Below are positions 2,681 to 24,356 of a DNA stretch of 25,907 nt, one piece after another. The notes below the pieces were generated by a model that was given only the letters and a program-made list of their open reading frames with translations, had not been told where the DNA came from and searched no databases. The position numbers and the translations under genes are program-made. How positions within the stretch are numbered: the first letter of the stretch is position 1; every line of letters begins with the position of its first letter. Source of the stretch: a virus; IMG/VR virus record IMGVR_UViG_3300047177_000005, positions 1-25,907 of that record, one strand, 5' to 3'.

Positions 2681-5532
2681 CAGACGAACCTCCAGCAGGT
2701 AGCGCCCGCCTTGAGCTTGATTGAACCGCCCGCGCTCTCGATCATAGCTGTCCCCGCATTGTTGATGAGGTTTGACCCGTTCGCGTTGACGACGATCGGC
2801 AGGGTCGGACTGGCGATGCCCTGATCGTCCACGATCTGAACGACCGGCGTCCCGAGCGCCGGGAGCGGTGGCAGGTAGATCTCCTGCGCGGCCGTGGTCC
2901 CGATCGCCACGAAAATAGTGTGGCCGAGGTCGCCGAGCGTGAGCGTGCCCTGCGCGGTCGTGGTCGCGCGCCGGTCGGCGCCGATCCCGATCCCGCTGCT
3001 GGGGACCTGCACCAGGCCACCGTTCTGGTTGACGTAGAGCTGCCCGACCGCGCTCGGCGCGACGGTCGGCAGGTTCGGCAAGATGAAGACCGTCTGGTTG
3101 CTCTCTTGAAACGGGCCGTAGTCACCCTGCAGGATGAGCACGCGCCCGACCGCCCCGGCTGGGATGTTGTGTCCGGGCACGATGCCGCCGGCATACTGGG
3201 GCCAGACGGCCGCGAAGAAGCCGACGTTCGGGTCAAAGTTCAGGAGGTAGTTGTCGCCGTCGCTGTTGAGGACCGTGCCGAACATCGCGCCGCGCGCGCC
3301 GGGTCCGACGTCGACGACCGGCACCGTAGAGGCCGAGTTATCGTTGCCGAACGTGCAACCGTAAAAAGAGACCCAAGAGTTAATGGTGTTACAGTAGAGA
3401 CCGACGCTGTGATCGACGGTGCCGGTGTAGCAGGCGTGAAACTCAGTGATCCGGACGTCGCCCATGATCAGAATGGCGAAGCTCGGTAGGTTGTTGTTCG
3501 ACGTGGTTTCGGGTCCAAAACTCCAAATCTTCGAGCCGAACTGCCCGGACCCGGTGCCACCGAGCACCATACCGAAAGCATAGTCCTCCGCAACGCAGTC
3601 GCTCCAGCACTGACCCGTGTTCGACCCGCCGTTAGCTGCGTGCGACTGAAAGCCGATGCCCTGCCGCGAGCCGGCGCCGCCGTAGGCGTCGCTCCCGGAC
3701 ACGCCGGTCGAGTAGATGCCGTAGGCTCGGCAATCTTTGAGATACCCGTTGGCGCCGTTGTTCCAAGCCTCGAACCCGACGCCACCGCAGTCGGCGGTGC
3801 ATTTGCTGATCAGCACGTTGCCACCGTAGACGACGCCGGTGTGGGCGCCGATGACCTGGACCTCCTCCATCACGCCGTCACCAGTGAAGAACAGCCAGTT
3901 CGTGCAGGCAAAGAAGGTGATCTCGGTCCCCGCCGGGATGCTGCTGTTCATCGCGCCGAGCGCGATCACGATGTTCGTAGACGTGATGCTGACAGAGGCG
4001 AGCGTCTGAGAGACGCTGACGGTGTAGGTCCCGACGCCACCCGTGCCCGTGCCGAAAGCGGCGATGTAGGTCCCGTCGACGGCGCCGGGGACGTACATGC
4101 CCACGGCCAGCGTTCCGCTGGTGACGGCCGAGACCGTCAGCGTGCTGCCGCTGATCGCGCCGGTGAACGAACACTGATAGAACTGTTCGATCTTGGCACC
4201 TGGCGGGATGGCGTTGTTCGCGGCCGTGACCGCCCACCCTTCGTAGAGACCCGAGATCGACGCTACCGGCAGCACGCACGACGCGCCGCCCTTCACGCCC
4301 TGCGGGACCGTCATCGTCACCGGCATCGTCGCGTTGCCGTAGCCGCTCTGAGCGGTAGCCCAGCGAGCCGACGCGGCGCGCGCCTGAGCTAGCGTCGTGG
4401 GGTTCTCGATCAGGCCGGCCTCCCAGGCCGTAAAGCGCCGGATCGAGCAGCCGTCGGAGAACTTAAACCCAGCGGGGTTCGCGAACACGAGCTGGGTCTG
4501 CATGATGCTGGTCTGTGTGTAGGAAGCGCCGTTGCTCACGGTCGCCAGCGTCCCCTCGATGGAGACGTTGGGCGGAACGAACTCTGACGCTTGAGTCTCA
4601 AGGTAGTATCGCTTGCCGGCGTTGAGGACAATGCGAATGCCGTTGATCGTCGCCGCGTAGGCGAAGATGATGTTGAACGCGGCCATGTCCTTGCTGACAA
4701 CGCTCGTGCTTCCCATCGGGCCGGTGCCAACCTGATAGAGCGCGTAGCTGTAGTTGCCGACCGCGCCCGCCATCTCGGGGCAGACGCCCCACGACGGCAT
4801 GCGTCGCGCCCAGCCGTACCCGGCCGTCGCCGAGGGAAAGTAAGAAAACCCGTCCGACGCGTAGCTGCCCTGCGCCACTAGGTCAAACGTGCCGCCGCCG
4901 AAGTCGTTGCGGACGTAGTAGCCCTGAACGTCGGTCGATACGCCGCCGGCTGTGATTAGGGCGATGTCTTGCGGCGTCGGTGCATAAGCTCCAAGTGCGG
5001 CGACGGTGGCAAAATGGCGATGCACGCCGGCCGTGCGGGCGAGAGAGGCCGCCGCAGCGAGGGTGCCAGATGTGATGGTGAGGTCGGCCGACGTAGCCGA
5101 GGCCGGCAGCGTGGCGGCGGTGCGGGCCAGCGACGACGCTGCTGCCAGGGTTCCGCTAGTGATTGTGAAGTCAGCCGTGGTCGCGCCGGCCGGCAGCGTC
5201 GTGGAGGTCCGCGCAATCGTCGGCCCAAGTCCAAGCGTCGGCGTGGCGCCCTGGGAGATCGTCAGGTCGTTGCTGATCGGCACGCCGCCGGGCACACCCG
5301 CTATCGTGCCGGAGTTGCCCAGGAGCGACTGCGCCGCCACTGTGCCGAGGCCGATAATGTCCGCGGCGATGGTGCCGATCTGTGCCGGCGTCATCTGGCC
5401 ATCGGCCCATTGCGTCACTCCGGCGATGACCGTGCCCGTGTTGATCTGAGCGTAGATCGCGACTTGGGCTGTGCCGATGTTTTCCAGAACCGGAAACTGA
5501 TGCGCCTGGTTCGGATATGTGTTGCCGGACAT
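2680..5532 (-). CDS. Tailspike / receptor-binding protein, probable beta-helix
   Basis: A 950-residue product. The N-terminus ([20 protein letters not shown]) and the following Ala/Gly/Thr-rich region probably attach to the tail. Residues 109-166 hold two copies of a 29-residue repeat. Residues from about 180 begin a spike body. A beta-rich module shared with two other virion proteins lies at about 456-517. Residues 530-740 look like a right-handed parallel beta-helix, with regularly spaced small residues, Asn and Cys ([32 protein letters not shown]). The C-terminus ([16 protein letters not shown]) resembles the last strands of other phage spikes. The ATG at 5532 is preceded by AGGA five bases upstream; the frame is open a further 27 codons, but those would overlap the adaptor gene. 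Depolymerase activity is plausible for such spikes, but no catalytic site was identified. Confidence 0.75.
3980..4165 (-). repeat. Shared beta-rich repeat module, tailspike copy
   Basis: The segment encodes about 62 residues of the pattern [14 protein letters not shown], then a strand, then [19 protein letters not shown], then SQTLAS. The same pattern occurs in baseplate J (10560-10745) and twice in the cement protein (23501-23670 and 23690-23862). Here it splits the putative spike body, and is flanked by two similar segments ([13 protein letters not shown] and [12 protein letters not shown]). Confidence 0.75.
5033..5206. repeat. Tandem 87-bp repeat, two copies, inside the tailspike gene
   Basis: Two 87-base units start at 5033 and 5120, and a third starts at 5207 but degenerates after a few codons. 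Each unit encodes 29 residues with the pattern [26 protein letters not shown]. The frame is kept, so copy number can change without disrupting the protein. The copies differ at many bases, so this is not a very recent duplication. Confidence 0.8.
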
Positions 5533-5539
5533 GACTATC

Positions 5540-6043
5540 CTAAGCCTGGATCTGGGCGAGGCCGATGTAGGCGCCGGATGCGGTCTGGAGTCCGTAACTG
5601 CCGGCCGCGACAAGAATTGCCTGCGTCGTCACAGGTCCAGGTCCGGTGCTGCTTGGCGCCGGAAGCGGCCAAGTCGCGGACAGAAGGCTAACCTGGATGT
5701 TGACGAACATTTCGAAGGTTCGGCCCATCGTCGTCTGGACTCCTATCGTCGCCATTGAAGTGCGGCCAGCGACGCCTCCGCAGATCCAGACAGTGACGAG
5801 ATTGCCGTAGATCGACAGCAGCGTGGGCTGCGCATCGGAGCCGCCAGACGGCGCCATGGATACCGATGCCGAAGCGATGTAATCTCCCACGTCGTCTAGC
5901 AGCGCGGTGAAGTCCAGGCTGTAGTCGAGTTCGTCTTCCGGCTGCTTGACGGGCCACGGCGGCAGAGACGGTGTGATGTATGGCGCCCAGGGCGTCGGCG
6001 CCGGAGGCTGCAACGTGATGGTGCGGGCAACAGAGATTGTCAT
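5540..6043 (-). CDS. Phage fibre-tail adaptor protein (Gp77-like)
   Basis: A 167-residue product. After a Pro-rich N-terminus ([10 protein letters not shown]...[14 protein letters not shown]), residues about 38-115 match the pattern of the Gp77/fibre-tail adaptor family: [20 protein letters not shown], a [12 protein letters not shown]-type segment, then a strand ending in [12 protein letters not shown]. The family is thought to link fibres to the baseplate. The ATG at 6043 overlaps the preceding stop (TAATG). The gene sits directly before the tailspike, consistent with attaching it. Family assignment is from memory of the motif pattern. Confidence 0.65.
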
Positions 6044-6588
6044 TACACGGCCAGCGACACGCTGCTGGCCGGAAGCGCCGTTGCGGACAACGGATTGCCG
6101 TCTATAATCAAATCGAGCGCCGCCACGTAACTCGCGATTGCGCCAGCGACGGCCTTGTATTGGTTGACAGTAAACGTGTGCCACTCGCCGGACGCGCTCT
6201 TCAACGGATAGTTCGCAGCACCGCCAGGGAACTCGTTGGTTGCCGTCAGTGTCGTCACCACCGCAGCCAGCTTGGCTTGCGTGACCGGATCGGTCGGGAA
6301 GATTGTCGCGGACAGCGTCACAGAGCCAGACAGAGCGATCATCAGGCCCGCCCCGATGGCCGCCATAGCATCCTCTGCCAAGGTTGGCGCGGGCGCCGTA
6401 GAGGCCACCAGCGCGCCGCCCTGGACGGCCCAAAGGCCCGTCATGCGAGATGCCCACTGGGTCGGCGTGAGCTGCAGCAGATTGGCCGATGCCGGCAGCG
6501 CCGGATAGGCAATGACCCCCGTATCATACCAAGCAAGGACCGGCTGCGGCGCGGGCTGTGTGGAGTCGAAATAGGCCAATAGCGCCAT
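6043..6588 (-). CDS. DUF4376-like tail fibre-associated protein
   Basis: A 181-residue product. The N-terminal third (LLAYFDSTQPAPQPVLAWYDT, then LLQLTPTQWASR) resembles the start of small phage tail proteins encoded next to fibre genes. The C-terminal half (KLAAVVTTLTATNEFP, then KSASGEWHTFTVNQYKAVA, then IDGNPLSATALPASSVSLAV) has the layout of DUF4376 proteins, often annotated as fibre assembly or tail proteins. I chose the ATG at 6588, two bases after the fibre stop; a TTG at 6606 would add six residues. It lies between the gp53-like fibre and the Gp77-like adaptor, as expected for an accessory fibre protein. Biochemical role unknown. Confidence 0.6.
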   Translation of the reverse strand: MALLAYFDSTQPAPQPVLAWYDTGVIAYPALPASANLLQLTPTQWASRMTGLWAVQGGALVASTAPAPTLAEDAMAAIGAGLMIALSGSVTLSATIFPTDPVTQAKLAAVVTTLTATNEFPGGAANYPLKSASGEWHTFTVNQYKAVAGAIASYVAALDLIIDGNPLSATALPASSVSLAV

Positions 6589-6590
6589 CG

Positions 6591-7616
6591 CTACCACCCA
6601 ACACAAATGAAGTGGCAGCCATTGGTGGAAGACGCGGTGTTCGTCGCGACGAAGCTGTAGGCTGTCGTGAATTGTGCTCCGACCGCTCCGGATGTCGGTG
6701 GCACCTCACCTTGATAGCTGATGACGATCGCCAAGCCTGCGTTCGGAAAGGCAACCGGAAGCGTGTAGGTGTGTGGAACTGTGCCCGTCACGGAAACCAG
6801 GCCCCACTGAATGATAAGTCCCCCGGCGATGTATTGGTATCCAGTGCCAGTCAGAGACGCGCCAAACTGGCTGATGTTGACAGCTTGCTTGCCAGCAACG
6901 CCGTTGCCGACATTGACCGCGCCTGCGCCCGTCCCGATCAGCTCAAACTGAGTGCCGTCATATTTCAGCACCCCGAACGAGTTGGCTGCTACCTCGCCGC
7001 CGGTAAGCGCGACGCCGCCCTGATGGATAGCCGTCGCACCCAGCCCGTTCGGGTTGAACGTCGAAGCGCCCGTGTTTGTATTCGCGAACCGGGCTGTGAT
7101 CGGGACGCCCGTTAGAGCGGCCAGCGAGGCGGGCGCGGGCGACATTGTAACCGCAACGGCATTCGTAGTGCCGGTGTCCGTCCAAGCCGCCGCAACCCAT
7201 GTCTCTGGCGGCAGAAACAGCCATCCGGCGCCGGCCGCATCAGGGTTCGTGGTGTTGTTATCGGCAGTGCTCAGCCAACTTGCGCCGGTTGTGGCCGCCG
7301 CCGCGATGATCGCGCCCTTCGGGTAGCCGCCGATCGAGGTGGAAAACGAACCGTCGTATCCGACAGGCGCTCCGGCCTGCTGCCACTGATTCCACTGCGT
7401 GATTTGCTTCAAAAGGCCATTGACATCCTCGCCCCATGGCCACTTTCCGCCGGAAGCGATCGGCGAAAAGCAGAGCGGAGGAAAGCCGTCCGTGAGCGAA
7501 GCTGCGCCGTCTTGCACCCCTATCTGTGATGCCTGAGGCACATTGCGAATATACGAAGAGCCAGCGCCGTTGGCGAACGGGATCGGAAATTTTGCCGGGA
7601 TGCCGGATGCGAGCAC
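6591..7616 (-). CDS. Tail fibre protein with gp53-like C-terminal domain
   Basis: A 341-residue product. The N-terminus (IPAKFPIPFANGAG...IRNVPQASQIG) and the segment FSPIASGGKWPWGEDVNGLL, then ITQWNQWQQAG are typical of short tail fibres that attach to DUF2612 baseplates. A central region includes ITARFANTNTGASTFNPNGLGA, a pattern common in fibre shafts. Residues about 265-341 match the gp53-like C-terminal receptor-binding fold: GGLIIQWGLVSV, YTLPVAFPNAGLAIVISY, ending FICVGW. The GTG start at 7616 abuts the DUF2612 stop and has GGGGG six bases upstream. Direct adjacency to DUF2612 supports this as the standard short fibre of the phage. Confidence 0.8.
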   Translation of the reverse strand: MLASGIPAKFPIPFANGAGSSYIRNVPQASQIGVQDGAASLTDGFPPLCFSPIASGGKWPWGEDVNGLLKQITQWNQWQQAGAPVGYDGSFSTSIGGYPKGAIIAAAATTGASWLSTADNNTTNPDAAGAGWLFLPPETWVAAAWTDTGTTNAVAVTMSPAPASLAALTGVPITARFANTNTGASTFNPNGLGATAIHQGGVALTGGEVAANSFGVLKYDGTQFELIGTGAGAVNVGNGVAGKQAVNISQFGASLTGTGYQYIAGGLIIQWGLVSVTGTVPHTYTLPVAFPNAGLAIVISYQGEVPPTSGAVGAQFTTAYSFVATNTASSTNGCHFICVGW

Positions 7617-8264
7617 TTAGGCCCCCTGAACAATCGTCAGCGCCACGCCGGCCGGTTTCGGTAACACGCCAGACGTAACCACGATGGCGTATTGAAGCGG
7701 CGTGAGCGTGAAGTCGAAAGTGTAGGTCATAGTCATGTTGAGTCCGTCCGTCACGTAGGCGTTGCCGAGACCTGGGAGCATCATAAGTAATATCTGGTTG
7801 ATGCTGGCGCTGGAACCATTCGAGATGTTAGCCAGAGCCTTTGCGTAGATCAGCGTTCGAAAGGCGTCGTCAGACAGTGGGTAGTTTTCGGTGCTGGGCT
7901 GCCCGCTGTAGAACGGCGCGCTGTTGAACGGTTGCTCCGAGTCGTCACCGGCTTCCGCAAAACCGAAATAGTCCCCAGTCGGCACCGCGATCACGCGATT
8001 AACGCCGACGATGCGGCCCCATACGTCGAGACCGTATCCCTGCGCGGTGTCGAGATTCCAGATAAGGCTGAAAAACTGATCGAACAGCGCGGTCGGATCG
8101 AGGTAGCCGCACAGATTGAAGATAATTTGCACCAACGACGGACTGTTGGCGTATTGGCTGATGATCGTGTCCCACGGGTTCAGCGGGGATTGCGAACCGA
8201 TCGAGCTGATACCGATGGCGAACGCGCCGATGCCGTTTACGGTCGGGTTAAAGGTTTCAGACAT
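7617..8264 (-). CDS. DUF2612 baseplate protein
   Basis: A 215-residue product matching the DUF2612 family of myovirus baseplate proteins. The hallmark is a helix ending in LDTAQGYGLDVWGRIVGVNR, followed by a segment rich in aromatic residues (GDYFGFAEAGD...PFYSG) and by DDAFRTLIYAKALANISNGS. The latter resembles the part of P2 gpI-like proteins that joins baseplate J to the fibres. It normally directly follows baseplate J; here a fibre gene and a small gene intervene. The ATG at 8264 has only a weak ribosome-binding site. Confidence 0.85.
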   Translation of the reverse strand: MSETFNPTVNGIGAFAIGISSIGSQSPLNPWDTIISQYANSPSLVQIIFNLCGYLDPTALFDQFFSLIWNLDTAQGYGLDVWGRIVGVNRVIAVPTGDYFGFAEAGDDSEQPFNSAPFYSGQPSTENYPLSDDAFRTLIYAKALANISNGSSASINQILLMMLPGLGNAYVTDGLNMTMTYTFDFTLTPLQYAIVVTSGVLPKPAGVALTIVQGA

Positions 8265-8284
8265 TTTGGCAGAAGTCTCTTGTG

Positions 8285-8518
8285 TTACTTGTCGGCCGCG
8301 TCGGCTGCGATGTCGGCCGCTGCGTATCGCCTCCGCGCGTGGTCAACAGCCGCCAGCCGGTGCCGCTCCTGGTTCGCCCGGTTCCGCTCCAGACGGCGCG
8401 CGTGGTGATCGGCCACGTCCTGTCGGTGTTGCTCCATGGCGGCGTGCCAGGCGTCTATTTTGGCTTGCTGCGCGGACGCGGCCTCCGCCATCGCGGCGGC
8501 GATTTCTTCTTCCGTCAT
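8285..8518 (-). CDS. Small charged coiled-coil protein, unknown
   Basis: A 77-residue product predicted by eye to be one long helix: MTEEEIAAAMAEAASAQQAK, then a stretch very rich in Arg, His and Glu (HHARRLERNRANQERHR), then an Ala-rich end. No family recognised. It starts five bases after the fibre stop, with GGAA nine bases upstream of the ATG, and fills the space between the fibre gene and DUF2612, so it is translated with the baseplate genes. It could be a chaperone or assembly factor for the preceding fibre, inferred only from position. A longer frame to 8593 would overlap the fibre gene and is less likely. Confidence 0.55.
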   Translation of the reverse strand: MTEEEIAAAMAEAASAQQAKIDAWHAAMEQHRQDVADHHARRLERNRANQERHRLAAVDHARRRYAAADIAADAADK

Positions 8519-8522
8519 GGCG

Positions 8523-10469
8523 TCAGGTTCCGATGAGGCCGTGGCCGGTCGCGGCGAACAGAGCTTGCTCAAGCGCAAACACGCGCGAGGCAAGTTGCGC
8601 CAGCGTAGCCGTGTCGTAGTTCATCGTGCCCTTGTTCGGGACGTTCGTCGTGCCAGTGCCGGCAGTCCATCCAGTGTTGCGGGCGCCGACCACCTGCACG
8701 CTAGCAACCGAGTAGTGTCCGGTCGGGAGGTTGAGGCCGGCCGAGCTGTAGGCTAGCACCAGCGCCGTGCCGGAGTCATACCACTCTGTCTGGCCCGAAT
8801 ACTGGTTCCACTGCACGTAATGGCCGCCATCGCGGCTGGACGTGGTGAGCTTGTATGTGTTCCCGTCCGTGCTGGCCGTGGCCGGGTTCGGGCCGATCGT
8901 CAGATTGCCGGTGATGAGCTGGTTCGAGTTCGTCACCAGCCCGCCGGCACCGCCGAACTGCGTGCTGTCCCACCCGCTGTGATAGGTCCCGGTTGCTTCC
9001 CAGCCGAGAAGCTGGCCGGTGTTCATGATGCCGAAGAATGTGTCGCGCGTGATCGTCAGCCCGAGCGCGGTGTCAGCGGATTGCAGCGAAGTCGAGAGTT
9101 GCAGATAGCCGCCCTCGTAGCCGGGGCCGTCCATCTGGTAGCCGACAGCCTGGTAGACGTTGCCGGAAGCCACGAACTTGATGTGCAACGGGTTCGACGG
9201 CGAGACGGTGGAGAGCGTTTCGCCCATCGCCCGAAAGCCGTGGACAAACCCGTAGATGCCGCCGAACTGCGTGCTGTGCGGGCTGGGGCTATCAACGTGG
9301 ATAACCGCGCCACCGCCGATCGATGCCGGGGCCGCTGCGGGAGCCGGAGTGCCGGCGGGCGCATTCGTGGCCGCTGCGTTGTGGGCCGCGCTCGTGACCG
9401 CCGTGGGCGCGGTGACGTTTCGGCTATCGAGCGAGAAACCAATGCAGCCGCCCGCTCGGTAGCCGACCTGGGCATACGTGCAGTCGGACGTGTCGGCGCT
9501 GAAGCACTGGAATATCGTGGCCGGCGTGCCGGCGTTGGACGATGCGCCGGGACTTGCTTGATTGAAGAAGTTCAGGATGTAGCCGCTACGCCAGAAGTTC
9601 ACGTCCAGATTATTAAGGACCATGTCCTCTTCGTCGCAGTTCATTGCGCCCGAGACATTGCTTGGCACGTCCAGAACATAGACGTTGTTGTACTGATCGA
9701 CGTAGCTGGTCGCGACGATGCCGTTCCGCGCCCAGACCTGCGGCAGCAGCGGCTTGCCGACATAGGCCGCCATCAGGGCCGCGTTGGACGAGCCGTTCGG
9801 ATAACCGACGTTGACGGCAGAATACGTCACCACGTAGCCGCTATTGCCGACCGACGTGGAACCGGATGGGTTATCACAACCAGTGCGAACCGTAGCGGTG
9901 TCGGAACTAACAAAGGCTGAATAATTGAACGCCGTGCCGGGGTTCGAGAGATACTCGGTGCTGACGTTGAGGTTGTTTTGATAGGCGTAATTGTTGCCGC
10001 CGGGGCCGGTGCGGTCCTCGGTGAGCGTTTGGACGAGCGACCCGGCGCTTGCGTTTGAACCCGGCTGCGTCTGCGTGACCGCCACCCCGGCATAGTGCGT
10101 CGCGGCGTCCACCGAGGGCGACACCGAGGCCGTGCCGGTCGCGTTGATGGCCCCGACGATCTGCACACCCGCCGGCCCCAGCACGCCCGGCACCGTGAGG
10201 TTGCCGGTCATGGTGCCGCCGTAGTTCGACACCACCTGCGAAATCTGCGCCGGCTGCGCGCTCCCGGGCGCTGCAGCCACAACGTTAAACGCTCCGGTCA
10301 TCGTCACGCCGCCAGTCAGCGGCACCACCGCACCCAGGGCGGGCGCGCCGCCCTGCGCTATGACGTTCGCGAGGATCTCGGAGTAGTCCTGCTTCTGCGC
10401 AAAGTAGGAATTCCACTGCTCCGCCGTAGGAGACTGTCCGTATATCAGGCCGGGACTATTGCCGCTCAT
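8523..10469 (-). CDS. Tail fibre / receptor-binding protein
   Basis: A 648-residue product. The N-terminus ([19 protein letters not shown], then NSYFAQKQDY) is of the type seen in phage fibres. GGTMTGNLTV and TGNLTIG motifs are short beta-hairpin repeats common in fibre shafts. A long Ser/Thr/Asn-rich body follows, with an Ala/Pro-rich linker near residues 365-385 (NAPAGTPAPAAAPASIGGG). The C-terminal 50 residues (VVGARNTGWTAGTG, then ASRVFALEQALFAATGHGL) match a widespread fibre ending with a short coiled coil, probably for trimerisation. The ATG at 10469 overlaps the baseplate J stop (TGATG). The position, between baseplate J and DUF2612, is unusual. Confidence 0.75.
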   Translation of the reverse strand: MSGNSPGLIYGQSPTAEQWNSYFAQKQDYSEILANVIAQGGAPALGAVVPLTGGVTMTGAFNVVAAAPGSAQPAQISQVVSNYGGTMTGNLTVPGVLGPAGVQIVGAINATGTASVSPSVDAATHYAGVAVTQTQPGSNASAGSLVQTLTEDRTGPGGNNYAYQNNLNVSTEYLSNPGTAFNYSAFVSSDTATVRTGCDNPSGSTSVGNSGYVVTYSAVNVGYPNGSSNAALMAAYVGKPLLPQVWARNGIVATSYVDQYNNVYVLDVPSNVSGAMNCDEEDMVLNNLDVNFWRSGYILNFFNQASPGASSNAGTPATIFQCFSADTSDCTYAQVGYRAGGCIGFSLDSRNVTAPTAVTSAAHNAAATNAPAGTPAPAAAPASIGGGAVIHVDSPSPHSTQFGGIYGFVHGFRAMGETLSTVSPSNPLHIKFVASGNVYQAVGYQMDGPGYEGGYLQLSTSLQSADTALGLTITRDTFFGIMNTGQLLGWEATGTYHSGWDSTQFGGAGGLVTNSNQLITGNLTIGPNPATASTDGNTYKLTTSSRDGGHYVQWNQYSGQTEWYDSGTALVLAYSSAGLNLPTGHYSVASVQVVGARNTGWTAGTGTTNVPNKGTMNYDTATLAQLASRVFALEQALFAATGHGLIGT

Positions 10470-11896
10470 CAGTGCAAGCTCACTTTGATGTCAAGAGCGG
10501 ACGTGAAAGGGACCTGATTGATATTCACCGGCATGCCGGTCAGGCTGGGCGCCACCGCATAGAGCGTTCCGCTCGCCACTGTCTGCGTAATGCCGAGCGT
10601 GTAGGTTCCGGTCCCGCCCGTGCCAGATCCGAGCGCAGTGATGTAGGTTCCGTCAGCAACGGTTGATCCCGTCACCGCCTGCCCAACCGCGAGCGTTCCC
10701 GACGCGACAGCGGAAACCGTCATCGTGGTGCCAGAAATGGAGGCGGTAAACGTCGCGGCGGGCGAATTGGCCGAGCCGATCGCAAGCGAGTATATCTGCG
10801 CCCAGGCGCCGATCGTCGCGATGTTTGCATAGTAGCGCGAGGCCAGTATCTCGGCGCCGATGCCGGCAGCCGCTCCGCTATCCTCGCCGGCAAAGGATTG
10901 CAGGATCGCGGCTTGCACAAGCGCCGCCGCATTCGACGGAACGCCAGAACTGTTCAGGATCGATACGGCAAAGTAGATCGTGAGCGGCGCGGGCGTTTCA
11001 TAGGTGACAGCGTAGCTCGGATAAGGCGACGTGTAGCCGGCGCTGGTGTCATAGACCGTGACTGTCGTGTTTCCGTTGTAGGCACAGCCCGGCGGCTTCT
11101 TCGTCCAGATGGCCTGCGCGACGGCGGCAGACTCTCCGCCGACTACCGCGACATAGATCGAATTTGCCGCAAGCGTCACGCCGCCGATCGTGGCCGGCGA
11201 AGCGGAGTCGTTTTCTGTCACGTAGCAGTTCAGGACGCCGGGCACCGCGAGCACGGCGCCCTTAATCGCCGGCAGCACGCCGACTGCGTTCTGCTCTACA
11301 GATGCCTGGCGCCGCAACTCGAATGCCGTCCGCGTCTCCGTGTTTGTGCCAACCACACCCGAGACGCACGTCACCGAATCCCAACCCGGTATCGCTTGGT
11401 AGATCGACACATCATCCGTGCCGGGGACGGCGATCGGCCCATTGGTCTGCGCGGAAAAAGACAAAACCACATAGCCGAGGCCGGTTATTGTCCCGGCGGC
11501 CGTGCAGGAATAGAGATTGCCCGATGCGTCCTGGATCAGCGCGCCGACACCTATTGTCAGTCCTGTCAGCCCGTTGCACTGCACCTGCAACACTGTCGGC
11601 TCTGCGCCGTTGCGCGTGATGAAGTAGATTCGAGCAATGCCGTCCTGCATGCGTCCCGCAGCGTAGGCGGGATCGACCTGATTGCAGTAATAGCAGAACA
11701 GATCATACATAATGCCGATGACCGCCGTCTGGCTGGTCATTAGCTGACCCTGCGGCGTGTTCAACGCGAGGTTCAGATTGCCGCCAAGGGCCGCGTTGTA
11801 GTCGGCTTGCACGCCCGTCAGGATTGCGGATTGCGTAGGGGCGGTGAAACCGTTGGCGCCGAATGTCGGAACGGGGACGGAGGAACTGTAGCTCAC
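10469..11896 (-). CDS. Baseplate J-like protein
   Basis: A 475-residue product of the baseplate J/gp47 family, which forms the arm of the baseplate wedge. Typical features are an N-terminal helix ([20 protein letters not shown]), the [15 protein letters not shown] segment, a central beta domain, and the [23 protein letters not shown] helix with [11 protein letters not shown] before it. Residues about 384-446 carry an inserted beta-rich module ([13 protein letters not shown]...[12 protein letters not shown]) that is not part of the usual family and recurs in two other virion proteins here. The GTG start at 11896 lies four bases after the gp25-like stop. Wedge, spike and hub genes are directly upstream. 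Confidence 0.9.
10560..10745 (-). repeat. Shared beta-rich repeat module, baseplate J copy
   Basis: The segment encodes about 62 residues: [20 protein letters not shown], then a [20 protein letters not shown] stretch, then [10 protein letters not shown]. It is the same module as in the tailspike and cement genes. It sits near the C-terminus of baseplate J, before the final strands ([18 protein letters not shown]). Confidence 0.75.
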
Positions 11897-11900
11897 GACA

Positions 11901-12254
11901 TCAGAACCCGGCCGTTGTCGTCACGCCATTGATATCTGTCACCTGCACCTGGCCCGACACCTTCCGTCCCTCGATGGACGAGATGTAGACCGCAGCGCTT
12001 GCCGCGTTCGGAGCTGACATGGCCGCCGCCACAAGCTGCGATTTCAGGAATTGGATCGGCGGCGTAAGACCCAGCATTTGGCCGAAATACTGCACGCCGA
12101 GCGTTGTGTCGTAGTAGACTTCACCCGCGAACGTGCGGCACGCGCAGGCGGCGTCCTGAGCGGTGGCGTATGGAGTGGATGTGATCGCGAGGTTGCCGAG
12201 GGCGTCTAGCGTGAGATCCCAGAGCGTCCTGTCGAGAAGTAGCGACTGGCTCAT
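11901..12254 (-). CDS. gp25-like baseplate wedge protein
   Basis: A 117-residue product. It starts [20 protein letters not shown], followed by a [21 protein letters not shown] segment and [10 protein letters not shown], the layout of the GpW/gp25 wedge family in phages of this type. It ends with a predicted beta hairpin ([21 protein letters not shown]). In related baseplates this protein joins the inner baseplate to baseplate J, which is encoded next. The ATG at 12254 overlaps the spike stop (TGATG). Confidence 0.8.
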
Positions 12255-14075: not shown

Positions 14076-14076
14076 G

Positions 14077-14943: not shown

Positions 14944-14958
14944 TCGTGGCGCCCCTAA

Positions 14959-17085: not shown

Positions 17086-17087
17086 AG

Positions 17088-17692: not shown

Positions 17693-18126
17693 CAGAACGG
17701 CAGCGGCGCAATCACGCCCCAGGTGATCGTAAACGGCCGGCCCTGCAACACGCGCCGCGCCTCGGGGATGGGATTGTAGTTCGAGATCACGCCGTTGTTC
17801 ATCGCGAACTTGCGGCCAATGCTGGTCATCGTCAGGATCGCGGCTGCCGGATAGATTTCCGAAATTGCGTCCTGCGCCGCAACCCAGGCATCGAAGATCA
17901 CCGACGACGGGCTATCCGGCATGATGGAGATGGTCTGCTTATACATCCGCGGCACCCAGCCGCTCGACATCACGCCATCGACACCCATGATGTTTTCGGA
18001 TGTCTCGGCGGCTTCGGTTGCGAAGGCCGCGTCAGCCATGAAGCCCTGTAGCTGCTGGCCGACCGCGTAGACGCCAGGGATTGTCAGAATATAGACGGAG
18101 TTGGCGCTGGTGATTGTGTTTGCCAT
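17692..18126 (-). CDS. Tail tube protein (DUF3277)
   Basis: A 144-residue product matching DUF3277 tail tube proteins in length and pattern: MGVDGVMSSGWVPRMYKQTI, then SIMPDSPSSVIFDAW, and QGRPFTITWGVIAPLPF at the end. Hundreds of copies stack to form the inner tube. The ATG has GGAG seven bases upstream. It follows the sheath gene, as usual for contractile tails. Confidence 0.9.
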   Translation of the reverse strand: MANTITSANSVYILTIPGVYAVGQQLQGFMADAAFATEAAETSENIMGVDGVMSSGWVPRMYKQTISIMPDSPSSVIFDAWVAAQDAISEIYPAAAILTMTSIGRKFAMNNGVISNYNPIPEARRVLQGRPFTITWGVIAPLPF

Positions 18127-18130
18127 GACG

Positions 18131-19648
18131 CTACTCCACGTCCACAGAGTTCATGGAAAGCGTCTGCACACTCTGCCCGTCAAAGTAATACAGGAAGATT
18201 GGCGGCGATCCGCGCGCGGCCTGAACCTGCGGCGAAGCCGTCCCGATCAGCAGATAGTATCCGACGTTCTGCACCGCGAGGCCGGCCCCCGTAACGCCAA
18301 CCGCGTTGTCGATTTCCTGCAACTGCAACGCCGACAACGTGCCGCCGGACCGGATCGCGCCGTAGTTCAGCGCTGCCTGGATCGGGGTCAAAAGCGCCGA
18401 TTCGATAAGCGCGTTGCCATAGGCGTTGTAAGGAATGTTGCCGTCTGTGACCTCCAGTTCCATCAGCGCAAGCTGGAACTGCGAGTTCATCCAGATCTGG
18501 TTGACGTAGCTGTCGAACCACAGGAACGGGCCGGAGATCAGCCCCGACTGCATGAACGTGAACGACTGGTTCGCCGTCGCGACGGCGGCGAGATAATTGT
18601 ATCCGTTGGCGTCCAGGTTGTCCGATATCTGCTGATTGGTGACGCTCGCCGTCAATCCGGGCTGGCTGCGATATGCAAGCGTCTGGCGCCCATCCGTTTG
18701 CGCAAAGTTCAGCGATGCCGCGAAGCCGAGCACGAATGTCGCGAGATACTGCGCCCCGGTTTCATACACGGGGCATGTGCCAGAGTAGTCGTTCCGCTCC
18801 AACAAATAGCCGAGCGACGTGGTAGTGCCCTGTTGGGTTGCAGCTACGTCACTGTCCCACGGCACATAGGCGTATCGGTTGTTCTGCCCGTTCGTCCAGG
18901 CTGCGAACGCGAGTTTCTGCGTGTTGGCGCCGCCGGTATCCGGATTGAACAGCGTCGTGAAGCAGGCCCAGTTCTGGGTGATCCCGGTGACTGCCGTCAT
19001 AAACGCTGCCGGCGTCGATACCGCAGCACCTTGCGACAAGACGGCGCCGGCCGCTTGCGTCAGCGCCAACTCGGTCGCCAGCGTGCCGGTTGTCGGGAAG
19101 GCGACCGTCGATCCGGTGCCGGCGGTGCTGGACGTAAAGACGAAGGCGCTTGCCACGCTGTCATAGGTGACAGTGAACGGAGGCGCCGTGAACGCAGTCT
19201 GAATGATCGTCGCGGCATTTGAAAAGCTGGTCGCGGACGAGAGATTGATCGTGCCGGATGTCGCGCTCGTGCCGTTGACGACAATGACGATCGTCCCAGT
19301 GAACGCTTGGAGTTGCGCCAGCGTAACGCCAGACAACGAACCGCCGCGCAGATATGCCGCCACCGACGATGTCGGAAACTGAGTGACCAGCATGGCGCCA
19401 GGCAACGCTGTGCAGTTGGTAAAGCCGGCGAAATACACCTGCGCCGCAGAATAGGCCGGCGTGCCTGCGCCGAAATACGCGAGCACCGAGGCCGGAGAAG
19501 CAAACGAAAGCACCTGCCCGACCGGAACCCGCGTCGTAGAGTCGAGGAACAGCCCGTTGAGCTGAAGCGCGTTTCCGCCGGCGCCCAGGACGCCAGGAAT
19601 GACGCTGACATATTTTGAAGCGGGAATGCTATTGAGGCTCGCCGACAT
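18131..19648 (-). CDS. Tail sheath protein (DUF3383)
   Basis: A 505-residue product of the DUF3383 family, the contractile sheath of these myoviruses. Typical are the N-terminal YVSVIPGVLGAGG, then the VLAYFGAGTPAYSAAQVYFAG region, the NNRYAYVPWDSD segment, AQTDGRQTLAYRSQPGLTA, and a C-terminal LQNVGYYLLIG-like segment with IFLYYFDGQSVQTLSMNSVDVE (here split for brevity). Its presence shows that the tail contracts. The ATG at 19648 has AGGAG eight bases upstream, fused to the previous stop codon (TAGGAG), suiting high expression. Confidence 0.92.
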   Translation of the reverse strand: MSASLNSIPASKYVSVIPGVLGAGGNALQLNGLFLDSTTRVPVGQVLSFASPASVLAYFGAGTPAYSAAQVYFAGFTNCTALPGAMLVTQFPTSSVAAYLRGGSLSGVTLAQLQAFTGTIVIVVNGTSATSGTINLSSATSFSNAATIIQTAFTAPPFTVTYDSVASAFVFTSSTAGTGSTVAFPTTGTLATELALTQAAGAVLSQGAAVSTPAAFMTAVTGITQNWACFTTLFNPDTGGANTQKLAFAAWTNGQNNRYAYVPWDSDVAATQQGTTTSLGYLLERNDYSGTCPVYETGAQYLATFVLGFAASLNFAQTDGRQTLAYRSQPGLTASVTNQQISDNLDANGYNYLAAVATANQSFTFMQSGLISGPFLWFDSYVNQIWMNSQFQLALMELEVTDGNIPYNAYGNALIESALLTPIQAALNYGAIRSGGTLSALQLQEIDNAVGVTGAGLAVQNVGYYLLIGTASPQVQAARGSPPIFLYYFDGQSVQTLSMNSVDVE

Positions 19649-19659
19649 GCGTCAGGCTC

Positions 19660-20202
19660 CTACGGGGCAGGGACGGGGATGAAAGTCGGCGTGAGCGTTC
19701 CAGCGAAGGCTTGCTGCGTGATCACGACTGGATTGATCTGCAACGCAGCCTCAACGATCCAGCGGAACTCGTATTGCTGCTCGCCATCGGTGAAAGGAAT
19801 TTGCCGAGGATCGCTGGCGTAGAGTGGTTGCACGCCCGGTTGCGCGGCAGCGAAAGCGACGCAGGCAAACTCGTCGCGCAGCAGCGTGGATGCGATCTGC
19901 GCGTTGTCGCCCGACGCTGGGCCGTGAAAGTCAAGCTGGATCGTCAGTTTCGTCGGAGCCAGAGAACTGCGGGTGCCGGACGGATTACCGACCGGGCTTG
20001 TCGCGTCGGCGTAAGTATCGACGTTGGTTTCTATGCGCTCGCGAAAGAGCGGCGTCATTAGGACGAAGTTGGCATCGTCAGGCTCGGGAACGCGATTGTC
20101 CTGGCCGCGCAGAACCGGCGTTCCGTTCGGCAAAATGGCCGTGAGGAAGCCCTCCATGGCCGTGAAGACCTGGACTTCCGTTAGCGTTAGAGTGGCCTCC
20201 AC
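19660..20202 (-). CDS. Neck terminator protein (LIC_12616 / gp12-like)
   Basis: A 180-residue product. The pattern GTPVLRGQDNRVPEPDDANF, then VLMTPLFRERIETNVDTY, and LTIQLDFHGPASGDNAQIAS, then TLLRDEFA is characteristic of the LIC_12616 (phage neck terminator gp12-like) family. It caps the tail tube and sheath at the neck and lies immediately before the sheath gene. The start is a GTG two bases after the previous stop, without a clear ribosome-binding site. Confidence 0.85.
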   Translation of the reverse strand: MEATLTLTEVQVFTAMEGFLTAILPNGTPVLRGQDNRVPEPDDANFVLMTPLFRERIETNVDTYADATSPVGNPSGTRSSLAPTKLTIQLDFHGPASGDNAQIASTLLRDEFACVAFAAAQPGVQPLYASDPRQIPFTDGEQQYEFRWIVEAALQINPVVITQQAFAGTLTPTFIPVPAP

Positions 20203-20204
20203 GA

Positions 20205-20585
20205 TTAGCTATTCTGTCTCGTAACGGCCACTTTGACCCAGCCGTCGCGCTCGCTCCAGTTCTCCAATACGAGAGCAACAAGCCAGATATCGCCATTCGG
20301 CATCGTGACGAGATCACCGCCACGCCGATCCGCGCGAACGAGACCTTCCCAGTTGCCGTTGATATAAAGTGCGCGGCGCTCGCCCTGAATGTTGAGCGCG
20401 TCGAGCTGGGCGATGTCGTTATATTGAAGGCTCTGCATCTGCACGGTGACATACTGCGTCGGTGCATATGTCGGCACACGCGAACCGTCCGGCCCGATTG
20501 TGCTTCCGGTGCTGCGCTGGATGCCGGCGACGATGGGCGGATTTATCGCAGCAATGATCGGAGAGACGATGGAATGTAGATTCAT
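20205..20585 (-). CDS. Neck/collar protein (head-tail junction)
   Basis: A 126-residue product. The segments VQMQSLQYNDIAQLDALNIQ, then GERRALYINGNWEGLVR and GDIWLVALVLENW, then GWVKVAVTRQ resemble a small protein often annotated as phage collar or neck protein between the tail-completion and neck-terminator genes. Its ATG at 20585 overlaps the previous stop (ATGA). The longer open frame to 20807 only shadows the upstream gene. Exact role not established from sequence. Confidence 0.65.
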   Translation of the reverse strand: MNLHSIVSPIIAAINPPIVAGIQRSTGSTIGPDGSRVPTYAPTQYVTVQMQSLQYNDIAQLDALNIQGERRALYINGNWEGLVRADRRGGDLVTMPNGDIWLVALVLENWSERDGWVKVAVTRQNS

Positions 20586-21037
20586 CCCTCCGTCACCTCG
20601 TAATCGACAGAGTGCTGCATCACGCCGCTGTCGATAAGCTGCTTGTCGAACCCCTTTGCGGCAACCGTAGCGGGCGCCAGCGGCGCGCCGGCAAAGTCCA
20701 CAATCGCTTGCTGCAACTGGCCTTTGATGCCTTCGCCCACCAGGCTGAGCGCGGCGCTGGAGTTGTAATCCTTCGCGACAAGGCACTTGCCCACCGCATC
20801 GCCCCATCCGGAGCTTTTCGCCGCTATCATCCCGCGAAAGAATGGCCGCGCCGGAATGCCGGCCTTCGGCGCCCCGAACTCCTGGATAGCGGCAACCATC
20901 GGCACCGACGTTCCGTCTGGATAAGTCGCGCCTTCGAGGAATCCGACCCGCACCTCGGCGTTTCTGTCGGCGCGTCCGGCGATTTGCCGCAATCGCTCTT
21001 CCAGCGCCGCGCCGCCGGTCAGACCGATGTCAGGCAT
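20582..21037 (-). CDS. Tail completion / HK97 gp10-like morphogenesis protein
   Basis: A 151-residue product. The core EVRVGFLEGATYPDGTSVPM, then VAAIQEFGAPKAGIPARPFF is a hallmark of small phage morphogenesis proteins of the HK97 gp10 type, with the IPARPF motif before a helix (GMIAAKSSGWGDAVG). It also has SLVGEGIKGQLQQAI and a PLAPATVAAKGFDKQLIDSG end. It probably acts at the head-tail junction. The ATG at 21037 overlaps the stop of the secreted protein (TGATG), which favours it over a frame to 21082. Confidence 0.8.
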   Translation of the reverse strand: MPDIGLTGGAALEERLRQIAGRADRNAEVRVGFLEGATYPDGTSVPMVAAIQEFGAPKAGIPARPFFRGMIAAKSSGWGDAVGKCLVAKDYNSSAALSLVGEGIKGQLQQAIVDFAGAPLAPATVAAKGFDKQLIDSGVMQHSVDYEVTEG

Positions 21038-21399
21038 CAGTTGAAGATCTGCACCGCAACTACGCACGTCCCGGTCGCGCACATCAACTGATAGCCGAGC
21101 GGATTGCCGTAAAACGAATAGGAGCCGCCGGATGCCGATAGTTGAAACGTGTAGGACGAAGCCGAGAGCGTGTTGCCGTCGCCGCGACCGTAGACAACAC
21201 TCGATCCGTAGTTGATCATTACAATATAGTGGATCGGAACCGAGCTACTGACGCCGAGCGCAGCAAGCGTCTGCGGCGTCGTTGTGACCGTGAGCGGCGA
21301 GAATGTCTGCGGAATGACGGTAGGGGCGTCGGGCGGCGGAATGGACGCGACCGCGGGCGATACCGTGAGAAGTGCCGCCAGAAGAAACCGCTTCACCAT
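21037..21399 (-). CDS. Small secreted protein within the head-tail module
   Basis: A 120-residue product. Residues 1-18 form a Sec signal peptide (MVKRFLLAALLTVSPAVA). The mature part has PTVIPQTFSPLTVTTTPQTL, GSSVVYGRGDGNTLSASSYT, and YGNPLGYQLMCATGTCVVAV at the end, suggesting a small beta sandwich with one disulfide (CATGTC). The ATG at 21399 has a perfect GGAGG six bases upstream, the best ribosome-binding site nearby, so this start is well supported; it overlaps the DUF4054 stop by seven bases. A secreted protein among cytoplasmic head-tail connector genes is unexpected. Family not recognised; receptor masking, decoration or superinfection exclusion are only guesses. Confidence 0.7.
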   Translation of the reverse strand: MVKRFLLAALLTVSPAVASIPPPDAPTVIPQTFSPLTVTTTPQTLAALGVSSSVPIHYIVMINYGSSVVYGRGDGNTLSASSYTFQLSASGGSYSFYGNPLGYQLMCATGTCVVAVQIFN

Positions 21400-21842
21400 G
21401 GGTAGCCTCCGCCTGCGTATGGCCGCCCCCAGCGTCCGCCTGGAATGTATCGCGCAGTGCGGTAGGGCAGCATCGCTTGCCACGCCGCCAGACCGTATTT
21501 TGACTGAGCAAACCAGGCCGCCGAACCCGGAACCTGCAAATCCGTCTGCACCGAAACGGAACCTTCCGTCGCGCCACTGATGCGCCCGACGATCGGCGAT
21601 GATGGCTGATTGCCGAGCGGCGCATTCAGCGCGGCGATATGCGCTGTAATCATGTTCAGGATTATCAGCAACGTGCCGCTGTCACCGATGACGCGGCTCG
21701 GATTGGCACAGTATGTCGCGGCCTCGGCGAAATACATCTGTGCGACCGCGGCCGGCACATAGGCCGCAAGTTCTGGATATCGAAGCTGCCACGTCGGATA
21801 GTCGAACGTGACGGCGACCGGCGCAGCCCAGCACCCGGACAT
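21393..21842 (-). CDS. Head-tail connector (DUF4054)
   Basis: A 149-residue product fitting DUF4054: FDYPTWQLRYPELAAYV near the start, then QMYFAEAATYCANPSRVIGD, an IILNMITAHIAALNAP helix, GRISGATEGSVSVQTDLQVP, then AAWFAQSKYGLAAWQAM, and a C-terminal RYIPGGRWGRPY. The family is an adaptor bound beneath the portal. I chose the ATG at 21842, two bases after the stop of the upstream gene; the frame is open to 22157 but only as a shadow. Confidence 0.88.
   Translation of the reverse strand: MSGCWAAPVAVTFDYPTWQLRYPELAAYVPAAVAQMYFAEAATYCANPSRVIGDSGTLLIILNMITAHIAALNAPLGNQPSSPIVGRISGATEGSVSVQTDLQVPGSAAWFAQSKYGLAAWQAMLPYRTARYIPGGRWGRPYAGGGYPW
21406..21410 (-). promoter_or_regulatory. Strong ribosome-binding site (GGAGG) for the secreted protein
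   Basis: GGAGG on the minus strand, six bases before the ATG at 21399. It decides the start, since the open frame continues to 21483, and it lies inside the end of the DUF4054 gene. Confidence 0.75.
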
Positions 21843-21844
21843 GG

Positions 21845-22273
21845 TTAGGTGCGAGTGTCCTTCTTGATCCCTTTCGGCACGCGCGCATCGCCGTTGTCGG
21901 GATCGATCGGCTCCAAGCCGGAGCGAACACGCTCGTTCTCGCGCGTCATGGCATCCACGGACGGAAGTTTCTCGTGCGCGAAGATCAGCCGCTCCGTCAC
22001 GATGGCGGTGTCCGCTTTCTGCTTCATCCACTCGGCGAAAAAGTCCGCATCGACGTTGTGGGTCAGGGCATAGCCGTTCGAAATGGGCGCCAGGGGCGGA
22101 CGGTTGATCGGATGCGCCGGGCCTTTGATGACGATCTGCTTGCCAACCCGAGTCCAACGAACGGTATCGCGTTCACCGCCGCCAAGAACAGGCTCGGTCT
22201 TGGTTTCCGGTTTTTCCAACTGCAGCACGATCCCGTTCGGGATTTTGCACGCGACTGTCACGACGCCAGGCAT
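21845..22273 (-). CDS. Hypothetical phage head-module protein
   Basis: A 142-residue, hydrophilic protein. The first half (VVTVACKIPNGIVLQLEKPE, then RDTVRWTRVGKQIVIKGPAH) looks like a small beta domain. The second half is charged (DADFFAEWMKQKADTAIVTE, then DAMTRENERVRSGLEPIDPD). Proteins with this layout are commonly seen between the major capsid and DUF4054 genes of similar phages, but I know of no assigned function. The ATG lies four bases after the capsid stop. Confidence 0.7.
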   Translation of the reverse strand: MPGVVTVACKIPNGIVLQLEKPETKTEPVLGGGERDTVRWTRVGKQIVIKGPAHPINRPPLAPISNGYALTHNVDADFFAEWMKQKADTAIVTERLIFAHEKLPSVDAMTRENERVRSGLEPIDPDNGDARVPKGIKKDTRT

Positions 22274-22277
22274 CGGT

Positions 22278-23402
22278 TCAGACCCCGATCATCTGAGCGA
22301 CCGCGACGGGCATTTTCAGCACCGTGCCCCAAGTGCCGCCGGTGACCTTCTGTTTGAAGGCGGAAAGGTCGCGAATGACCGGATGCGCCCTCATCTTTTC
22401 GTTGAACGCGCACATGCCGGTGTCCTGGCCGTCGAGATTTTCGGCGATAAGCTGCACCACGTTGCCGCCCGTGATGCCCTGCGGGTTCGACGCACTGACC
22501 ACGCCGTATTGAACTGCTGTCTTCACTTTCAGGTTCGGGAAGTTCTTTTTCAGGAGGTCTTCCACGTTGACATTGTAGGTGTTCGTCGCCGTCAGGGCGA
22601 CAGACGACTGCGGCGAGAGCGCCAGAGTCATCGGCGTTGCGCGGTCCACCACACCGGCGGTCTGCTGCACAAGCTGGCCGAACACCGCCTGAATGTCGGC
22701 ATAGACCTCATTTGCGGTGGCGTTGATGTTGCCGTTGTAGATCCAGACGTTACCGTTGCCGGCCTGCTTTGTGCCTGGCGCGATGTAAGCGGCAAGGTTC
22801 GGATCGTTCAGCAGCCCGTAGTTTTCGAGGCCCGCCACGCCGAACGCATACGTCAAGTTCAGGAACTTGGCCATGACGGTCGCCGCTGCGCGGTCCATCT
22901 GCGCCGCCCAGTTCAGCCGCGCGCGGCCGGCCCGCTCCAACTCGCGCTCGCCGTACTGCTTGATCGTCTGGAACAGATATGCCTGGCGCTGCGGAAAGTT
23001 GACGTTGGCGCCGGCCCGGCCGTTGTTGTTGTAGTCGCCGTAGCTGGAAACCTCGCCAGTGTGCTCCACCACCTCGAACATGATGGTTTCGTCGATCCAA
23101 CTGCCGCGCTTTTCCTCGCCGAAGATCTCGGCCATCTGGTTTTTCGCGAACACGACTTCGATCACGGCAGGATCGATGAGAGTCGTCAGAAACGCCGGTA
23201 TGGCGGCGCTCGGTGTCGTGGAAGACAGGCCGACCTGAGCATCCATCGCGATAGACACCGCCGAGTCCCAGTCGTCGCGCCAGCCTTTCGGCAGGTAGCT
23301 GCGAACCTCGGGAAAAACGATACCGTTTCGGGCAAGCTGGGCACTGTCTTCCGCCCAAGCGGAGCGCGCCGCGTCGTATGTCGGGAAGGAAATCGCGTTC
23401 AT
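22278..23402 (-). CDS. Major capsid protein (DUF2184 family)
   Basis: A 374-residue product matching the DUF2184 major capsid family in length and pattern: AFLTTLIDPAVIEVVFAKNQ, then MAEIFGEEKRGSWIDETIMF (E-loop side), the GEVSSYGDYNNNGRAGANVN stretch, RQAYLFQTIKQYGERELERA, and near the end AFNEKMRAHPVIRDLSAFKQ. It forms the icosahedral shell with an HK97-like fold. The ATG at 23402 has AAGGAG eight bases upstream, fused to the preceding stop codon. Cement gene upstream and connector genes downstream support the call. Confidence 0.93.
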   Translation of the reverse strand: MNAISFPTYDAARSAWAEDSAQLARNGIVFPEVRSYLPKGWRDDWDSAVSIAMDAQVGLSSTTPSAAIPAFLTTLIDPAVIEVVFAKNQMAEIFGEEKRGSWIDETIMFEVVEHTGEVSSYGDYNNNGRAGANVNFPQRQAYLFQTIKQYGERELERAGRARLNWAAQMDRAAATVMAKFLNLTYAFGVAGLENYGLLNDPNLAAYIAPGTKQAGNGNVWIYNGNINATANEVYADIQAVFGQLVQQTAGVVDRATPMTLALSPQSSVALTATNTYNVNVEDLLKKNFPNLKVKTAVQYGVVSASNPQGITGGNVVQLIAENLDGQDTGMCAFNEKMRAHPVIRDLSAFKQKVTGGTWGTVLKMPVAVAQMIGV

Positions 23403-23410
23403 GGGGAGTG

Positions 23411-23416
23411 CTCCTT
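23411..23416 (-). promoter_or_regulatory. Strong ribosome-binding site (AAGGAG) for the major capsid gene, overlapping the cement stop codon
   Basis: The minus strand reads TAAGGAG, in which TAA ends the cement gene and AAGGAG is the Shine-Dalgarno sequence eight bases before the capsid ATG. An identical TAAGGAG precedes the cement gene (24365-24370). Confidence 0.8.
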
Positions 23417-24356
23417 AACCCAACAGGTGCGACGAGATTTTGACGAGTTCGCCCGGCGCGCCGCTGGACATCGCGACCCACTTGGTCTGGACTGATGTGC
23501 CGGCAGTGATGGTGGTGCTGGCGGCGGTCTGCGTCGGCGAGACGATGTAGGTTCCGGTCCCGCCGGTGCCGGTGCCCAGCGCGGTGATGCTGGTTCCCGT
23601 CGTGACGTTGGTGCCGGACAGCACATCACCGATACCAAGAGCGCCGGAGCCGACCGCGGACACAGTCAGGGTGCCGTAGGTCTCGCTGATGGTTGTGCTC
23701 GCCACGGACTGCTCAGGGATCGACACCTCATAGACGCCGACGCCGCCCGTCGTGCCGCTGAGCTGCGCCACGATCTGCGTGCCGGTCGCGACGTTGGTGC
23801 CCGACAAGATGCCGCCAGGAACCAGCGTGCCGCTGCCGACCGCGGAGACCGTCAAGATGTTGTTGGCGATCGAGCCGGTCACGCTGGCGGTGCTGGCGGC
23901 AATAGCGCCGGTCACGCTGGCCGAACTTCCCGCGCCAGCCGCAGCGAATGACGCCAAGCCGTTGCTGTAACTGGCGAAAGCGTTCATGCCGGGGCGGGCT
24001 TCGGTGGTGCCGTTGTTCACGATCCAATAGTCGCCGCCGCTGTGCAGTGTGCATTGGAACCCGGTCGGGATCGTCATGCCGTATTCGGTCAGATAGGTGG
24101 TGATCAGACCCTGCATGTTGCGCGGCACGAACCCGGCCACCGGCCCGGAGCCGAAGTTGTTGGCGATTATCGGCGCGCCGTTCGCGTCGAGCGGCTGGGT
24201 GATCCAGGCGAACGCACCGATCGTCAGACCGTTCGGGCCGGCGATCAAGCCGCCAGGTCCGGCATCCACCGAATACCAGAGGTTTGCCGAGGCGAAGTCG
24301 CCGGCGACCGCGGGGGCGGGCTGGACGTTGACTTGGCGCTGAAAGTTGTCGGTCAC
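23415..24356 (-). CDS. Capsid cement/decoration protein (gp24-like) with two repeat modules
   Basis: A 313-residue product. Residues 1-100 resemble structural cement proteins of the Gp24 type: [20 protein letters not shown], then [32 protein letters not shown], and [20 protein letters not shown]. After an Ala/Ser/Thr linker, two beta-rich modules follow at about 165-222 and 229-285, which make it longer than usual for cement proteins. The C-terminus ([20 protein letters not shown]) returns to the cement fold, so the modules look like insertions in an external loop. The GTG start has AAGGAG eight bases upstream. It decorates the shell built by the next gene product. Confidence 0.82.
23501..23862 (-). 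repeat. Shared beta-rich repeat module, two tandem copies in the cement protein
   Basis: Copies lie at about 23690-23862 and 23501-23670. Both encode LTVSAVGSG, then LSGTNV, then TGTxI, a Gly/Thr turn ([11 protein letters not shown] or [12 protein letters not shown]), and a final xxAST-TI strand. The second copy matches the tailspike and baseplate J modules more closely ([10 protein letters not shown]) than the first. Confidence 0.75.

Follow-up and report, generated by a model that had tools for sequence, protein, structure and literature searches.

A small predicted β-barrel module recurs in outward-facing virion proteins of a contractile-tailed phage and its relatives

Phage immunoglobulin (Ig)-like domains are small, reused β-domains that occur in many unrelated virion surface proteins and are patchily distributed among homologues (Fraser et al. 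2006, cited in PMC9230969; T4 Hoc, PMC10385173). Together with extra domains of the tail sheath, which lie away from the tube, they have been proposed to serve as adhesion aids (PMC9230969). The shuffling of protein fragments between phages was recently surveyed using ECOD domains, and in the relevant passages of that study most recent examples concern receptor-binding and baseplate proteins (PMC10684548). Here, a module of about 64 residues is described that occurs four times in the window, i.e. the whole linear IMG/VR virus record IMGVR_UViG_3300047177_000005 (25,907 bases), which derives from a contractile-tailed phage with its structural genes on the minus strand. The module shares with phage Ig-like domains its small size, its β-structure, its reuse in many unrelated surface proteins and its patchiness, making the comparison of how the two work a strong one, but it differs from them in its predicted fold, a barrel resembling domain 2 of EF-Tu, in its location inside loops and in its near absence of charge. 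An earlier note on this DNA had likened the module to Ig-like domains; it does travel among outward-facing virion proteins as these do, whereas its predicted fold is best read as a different one, a barrel. The module belongs to the same general phenomenon of mosaic phage proteins as fragment shuffling, is absent from the relevant passages of the ECOD-based study (PMC10684548), and looks like an uncatalogued reusable surface add-on.

The four copies are found in a tailspike-like protein, in baseplate J and, as a tandem pair, in the cement protein. The scores below are from a control profile built from other viruses only, with the window and the near-identical locus L085 excluded (Z = 500,000); L numbers denote the loci fetched for comparison.

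3982-4167, minus strand: module copy of the tailspike-like protein, in the open reading frame (ORF) 2680-5613 (71.3 bits, E 1.4e-18)
10559-10750, minus strand: module copy of baseplate J, in ORF 10469-11896, about 30 residues before the C-terminus at host site ~382 (81.9 bits, E 6.9e-22)
23685-23882, minus strand: first module of the tandem pair in the cement protein, ORF 23415-24356 (72.2 bits)
23505-23687, minus strand: second cement module, ORF 23415-24356 (66.8 bits)

This window-free profile matched exactly these four copies in the window (66.8-81.9 bits, E 3.6e-17 to 6.9e-22), and only two matches, at E 11 and 19, were obtained with it from the residue-shuffled and reversed ORFs of all loci. 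The copies announced in the earlier note are therefore all present, on the minus strand and within a few residues of where it had placed them, and the profile search recovers each of them with clean controls. Pairwise identity between the copies is 53-65% at the amino acid level and 58-67% at the nucleotide level, and parts of them are also picked out by direct repeats in the DNA; the shared motif (TVSAVxSGTLxxG ... GTGTGGxGTYxV ... QTxAS) deviates to SGALGIG in cement copy 2 and to EQSVAS in cement copy 1. Convergent low-complexity Gly/Thr-rich sequence, as opposed to a homologous domain, could be invoked since the BLAST low-complexity filter masks part of the module and searches of phage and plasmid collections return few or no matches, but the window-free E values, the clean shuffled and reversed controls, a collinear full-length alignment and a single confident fold reduce the probability of this explanation almost to nothing. 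A low-complexity artefact is refuted by the same controls.

The strongest evidence that the module lies on the virion surface is the contrast between outward-facing and enclosed proteins. Counted over the homologues that the fetched loci contain for the window's genes, the module was present in 22 of 50 sheath proteins, 18 of 36 neck/tail terminators, 41 of 61 baseplate J proteins and 13 of 14 cement proteins, the last two fractions not being unbiased because both proteins were search queries. It was present in none of 419 homologues of the tube, tape measure and its chaperone, hub, gp25-like protein, spike tip, baseplate protein 14077, major capsid protein, scaffold and protease; these enclosed proteins, like the sheath and the terminator, were sampled as neighbours only and not as queries. 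The patchy occupancy of outward-facing proteins, taken with the 0/419 in enclosed ones, indicates that the module is a mobile surface accessory domain. Not every exposed protein is filled, as none of the 56 homologues of the exposed fibre at 6591 carried the module.

When the modules were excised and the host parts aligned, the insertion sites proved clean and recurrent in relatives. Empty homologues are frequent and include two proteins of the window itself:

18131-19648, minus strand: tail sheath (DUF3383), unfilled at its module site, residue ~153 (about 19190)
19660-20202, minus strand: neck/tail terminator (PF23961); its module sites at residues ~74 (about 19981) and ~26 (about 20125) are both empty

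The sheath site at ~153 holds zero, one or two copies, and one relative carries three at ~119; the terminator site at ~74 holds zero or one, with another copy at ~26 in two relatives. In baseplate J most filled homologues use the site at ~375-382, a separate clade (support 99) uses a second site at ~234, and one protein has an extra copy at ~341, while the cement site at ~158 holds zero (L148), one (L172) or two copies. The 30 kb examined of the cultured Acetobacter phage phiAO1, which include its cement and baseplate J genes, yielded no module. Sheath occupancy changed at least eight times on the baseplate J tree, on which gains and losses are not distinguishable. A correlation between gain in baseplate J and gain in the sheath had a Fisher p of 0.004, but once relatedness was allowed for only two to four independent pairs were left, too few to judge it. 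A two-module cassette with a shared strand occurs in both sheath and cement proteins and is likely to be one transfer unit. The earlier note had reasoned that a module always found at the same place in homologues would be ancient rather than mobile; instead, occupancy varies from homologue to homologue and baseplate J has a second site. Its proposal that the module travels between outward-facing virion proteins agrees with this variation, with the tandem cassette common to cement and sheath, and with the outward-facing position of the carriers.

The carriers of the window were assigned as follows.

23415-24356, minus strand: cement/decoration protein of the XM1 gp53 family (PF23982, E 2.2e-20, 73.5 bits against a cut-off of 27)
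10469-11896, minus strand: baseplate J/wedge protein with one module (PF04865, 8.5e-11; E217 gp44, 8env_J, 4.2e-18)
2680-5613, minus strand: tailspike-like protein of 977 amino acids with one module and no family match outside it

In the cement protein the two modules are inserted before the last strand, at host residue ~158. An AlphaFold2 model of the whole protein (predicted local distance difference test, pLDDT, 82.7) superposes on the decoration proteins of FCWL1, T1, Pa193, E217 and XM1 with Z 13.6-15.2 (7kmx_a, Z 13.6 over 141 residues; 9kmg_b, Z 15.2; also 9b40_K and 8frs_f). Because the superposition spans residues ~6 to 311 of the model while only ~140-157 residues align, the tandem modules form an insert in the cement fold; the first strand of the second module continues from the last strand of the first, with a shared linker. 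The host part has the same fold as the decoration proteins XM1 gp53, E217 gp24 and those of FCWL1 and T1, which unlike the window's protein are about 150-211 residues long and lack modules; trimers of XM1 gp53 and E217 gp24 are located on the capsid surface (PMC10457771, PMC10329688). Of the names given to the carriers in the earlier note, baseplate J and cement stand on their family matches, whereas 'tailspike' rests on position and length, no family matching outside the module. Homologues of the 977-residue protein beyond the module region were not found at close range, its sole relative (L178) being similar around the module only. With the modules masked, the window's carriers showed no similarity to one another, which supports the earlier statement that they share no other ancestry. 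The flanks of the spike module (about 4170-4290 and 3890-3980) resemble degenerate module halves, as if it lay within older, decayed copies. A tandem 87-nucleotide direct repeat, 74% identical and distinct from the module, is found at 5028-5201 in the N-terminal part of the same gene.

An AlphaFold model of the module, computed from an 82-row alignment, is all-β and confident (pLDDT 96.2, predicted template-modelling score 0.83), giving one fold for the copies where the earlier note had considered that structure predictions might yield different ones. By Foldseek and VIA-align the closest solved chain was 8eci_1 of Arthrobacter phage Bridgette (Z 7.2, root-mean-square deviation 2.2, 65 residues, 29% identity); next came IF2 domain 2 (Z 6.2) and the barrels of F1-ATPase and E1, and within the cement model the first module matched eEFSec, eEF1A and EF-Tu (Z 6.3-7.5, ~70 residues). 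As these Z values are middling, the likeness is one of fold class only, and the module is predicted to be an EF-Tu/IF2-domain-2-like β-barrel rather than an Ig domain. The barrel arrangement is that of domain 2 of EF-Tu, eEF1A and IF2 (Z 6-7.5 over ~70 residues), but identity to these is ~10-18% and no sequence family is shared: none of the 82 members matched a translation-factor family of Pfam or NCBIfam at E ≤ 0.1, and a role in translation is not implied. An Ig-like fold was supported neither by the confident model, whose best matches are barrels, nor by the family scans, the only Ig-type Pfam match among the 82 members being non-significant (Big_6, E 0.088). Bridgette has dimeric capsid cement proteins (PMC13033339); 8ECI chain 1, probably such a protein, is a separate polypeptide of 124 residues whereas the module is a loop insert, and a Z below 8 can mean a common arrangement only.

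The module has no family in Pfam or NCBIfam, PDB sequence searches, whether by a single module or by the 82-row profile, gave no significant match, and a description of it was not found in the open-licence literature. PHROG 21413 and PHROG 38233 contain it and match it in the carriers tested, but they are whole-protein families, not domain models, labelled 'unknown function' and 'tail fiber protein'. The module may have been overlooked because ordinary low-complexity filters mask its Gly/Thr-rich sequence. Among predicted viral structures, near-identical folds with ~40-60% sequence identity were found in P22 gp10-like, HK97-type capsid and side-tail-fibre proteins. Collagen-repeat proteins of the giant virus Indivirus ILV1 (BFVD A0A1V0SCQ2 and A0A1V0SDM6) are also predicted to contain this fold and are there 39-54% identical to the module, which suggests spread beyond tailed phages.

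When viral contigs were scanned with the window's four copies, at least 363 relatives were confirmed, and 80 of these were retained. In sampled Pseudomonadota genomes, scanned with the 4-row alignment, the module was rare: apart from the query genome, 3 of 397 had it. A tblastn search of phages and plasmids with the module consensus gave no match, presumably owing to low-complexity masking; a single window copy matched Sinorhizobium phage tail fibres, and a concatenate of 12 modules matched three metagenomic phage records. Carriers that, with modules masked, are not homologous to other window proteins fell into 32 clusters, one of them the window's spike. The largest clusters are of podovirus head-closure/nozzle and SU10-type adaptor proteins; among the others are baseplate wedges, collar fibres, some bacterial proteins of secreted type and a capsid-protease fusion. 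In the capsid/maturation-protease fusion (L164:4033-6567) the module lies near the capsid domain; few other head-shell carriers occur in the fetched loci. A 1399-residue Roseicella protein with a signal peptide and a GH5 cellulase match (L150:3160-7356) has two modules in a second half that is also GH5-like, and the corresponding loop of the first half contains a stretch resembling a degenerate module; since its neighbours look prophage- or tail-fibre-like, it was not used as evidence of carbohydrate binding. A 1301-residue secreted-type protein of Rhodocyclaceae with two modules (L170:2950-6852) resembles MshQ-like pilus adhesins by eye.

The earlier note had regarded the DNA similarity between copies as a substrate for recombination between genes, and had proposed a nucleotide comparison to date their divergence. 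Codon identity at identical residues was close to that expected from codon usage, with 16 observed against 15.5 expected for spike and baseplate J and a small largest excess (18 against 13.0, spike and cement 1), so the copies are old, near synonymous saturation. The nearest relatives of 99 non-identical copies lay in the same slot of another genome (72) or in another carrier of another genome (27), and never in the same genome. In baseplate J, sheath and terminator the divergence of the modules keeps pace with that of their hosts; in the cement protein conservation is higher in the modules (0.65) than in the host part (0.51). From these sequence comparisons (codon saturation, nearest relatives in other genomes and divergence in step with hosts), movement of the module is judged to be old and episodic, followed by vertical residence. 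Recent recombination or gene conversion spreading the module between this phage's own genes would find its substrate in the repeated GC-rich DNA of the copies, but the spike/baseplate J codon count and the 0/99 nearest relatives in the same genome make it highly improbable, and recent gene-to-gene exchange was rejected on these two tests.

In the reading that we favour, which we regard as about evenly balanced between right and wrong, the module is a self-folding barrel in permissive outward loops, acquired, duplicated and lost by many tailed phages, and most likely acting as an adhesive knob. The barrel would fold independently and could be spliced into virion surface loops with the host fold undisturbed, and many tailed phages would have gained, multiplied or shed it at favoured loops of cement, neck terminator, sheath and baseplate J proteins, podovirus adaptors and nozzles, and fibres. 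In the window phage it would stud the head, baseplate and spike, where many identical, weakly adhesive knobs might engage polymers of the host surface or the environment multivalently and with low affinity, and so hold particles near cells ahead of specific receptor binding. Such weak multivalent adhesion is proposed with moderate confidence, being favoured by the analogy with phage Ig-like domains. Several observations weigh against this reading. Charged residues (DEKR, 2.5% against 13.4% elsewhere in the carriers) and aromatics (4.6%) are scarcer than is typical of carbohydrate-binding modules; a conserved surface patch of polar or aromatic residues is not evident, and the positions that scarcely vary are T, V, G, I, one Y and one Q; there is no sign of diversifying selection in the modules, which diverge in step with most hosts as described above; and surface exposure is deduced from carrier identity, not from the structure of a module-bearing virion.

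Contacts with neighbouring subunits are made by many decoration proteins and by some of the extra domains of sheaths, and the barrels could likewise be stabilising clamps that strengthen capsid, neck, sheath and baseplate. This would suit the load-bearing nature of the cement, neck and sheath carriers, the origin of the closest solved chain in a capsid entry of Bridgette, with its dimeric cement proteins (PMC13033339), and the stronger conservation of the cement modules; however, every site is patchily filled, so that homologues manage without the module, it also occurs in fibres, secreted-type proteins and podovirus parts that have no common interface, and the conserved surface residues that a conserved interface should leave are not evident, so that a clamp appears rather unlikely. 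A passive or selfish spacer, in which a well-folding, charge-free, Thr/Ser-rich barrel is tolerated in exposed loops and possibly offers an anti-aggregation or stealth surface with no binding, would fit the low charge, the threonine content of 21.6%, the structural look of the conserved residues and the frequent changes in occupancy. Yet the copies persist undecayed over deep divergence and evolve no faster than essential host proteins, which points to constraint on the module, and we consider a mere spacer unlikely. A wider proposal, that the neutral Thr-rich barrel is a general virion-surface currency of tailed phages and, from predicted structures, of a giant virus, placed on head, neck, sheath, baseplate and fibres alike and serving as a multivalent or stealth coat, is offered tentatively and with more doubt than belief; if true, a whole-particle coat would tune particle behaviour independently of the receptor-binding protein.

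Alongside the Ig-like domains, the module is a second promiscuous domain system of the virion surface. As sheath, neck, baseplate and cement proteins occur naturally in filled and empty versions, matched pairs allow a direct test of what phages gain from accessory surface domains, a question of long standing. Elsewhere in the window, a 682-residue ORF at 632-2680 has a signal-peptide-like start, and its GGTGNAVGDVLTL stretch looks like another reusable phage module. In phage phiAO1 (L180), genes annotated as catalase, superoxide dismutase, peroxiredoxin and sorbosone dehydrogenase lie between the structural genes.

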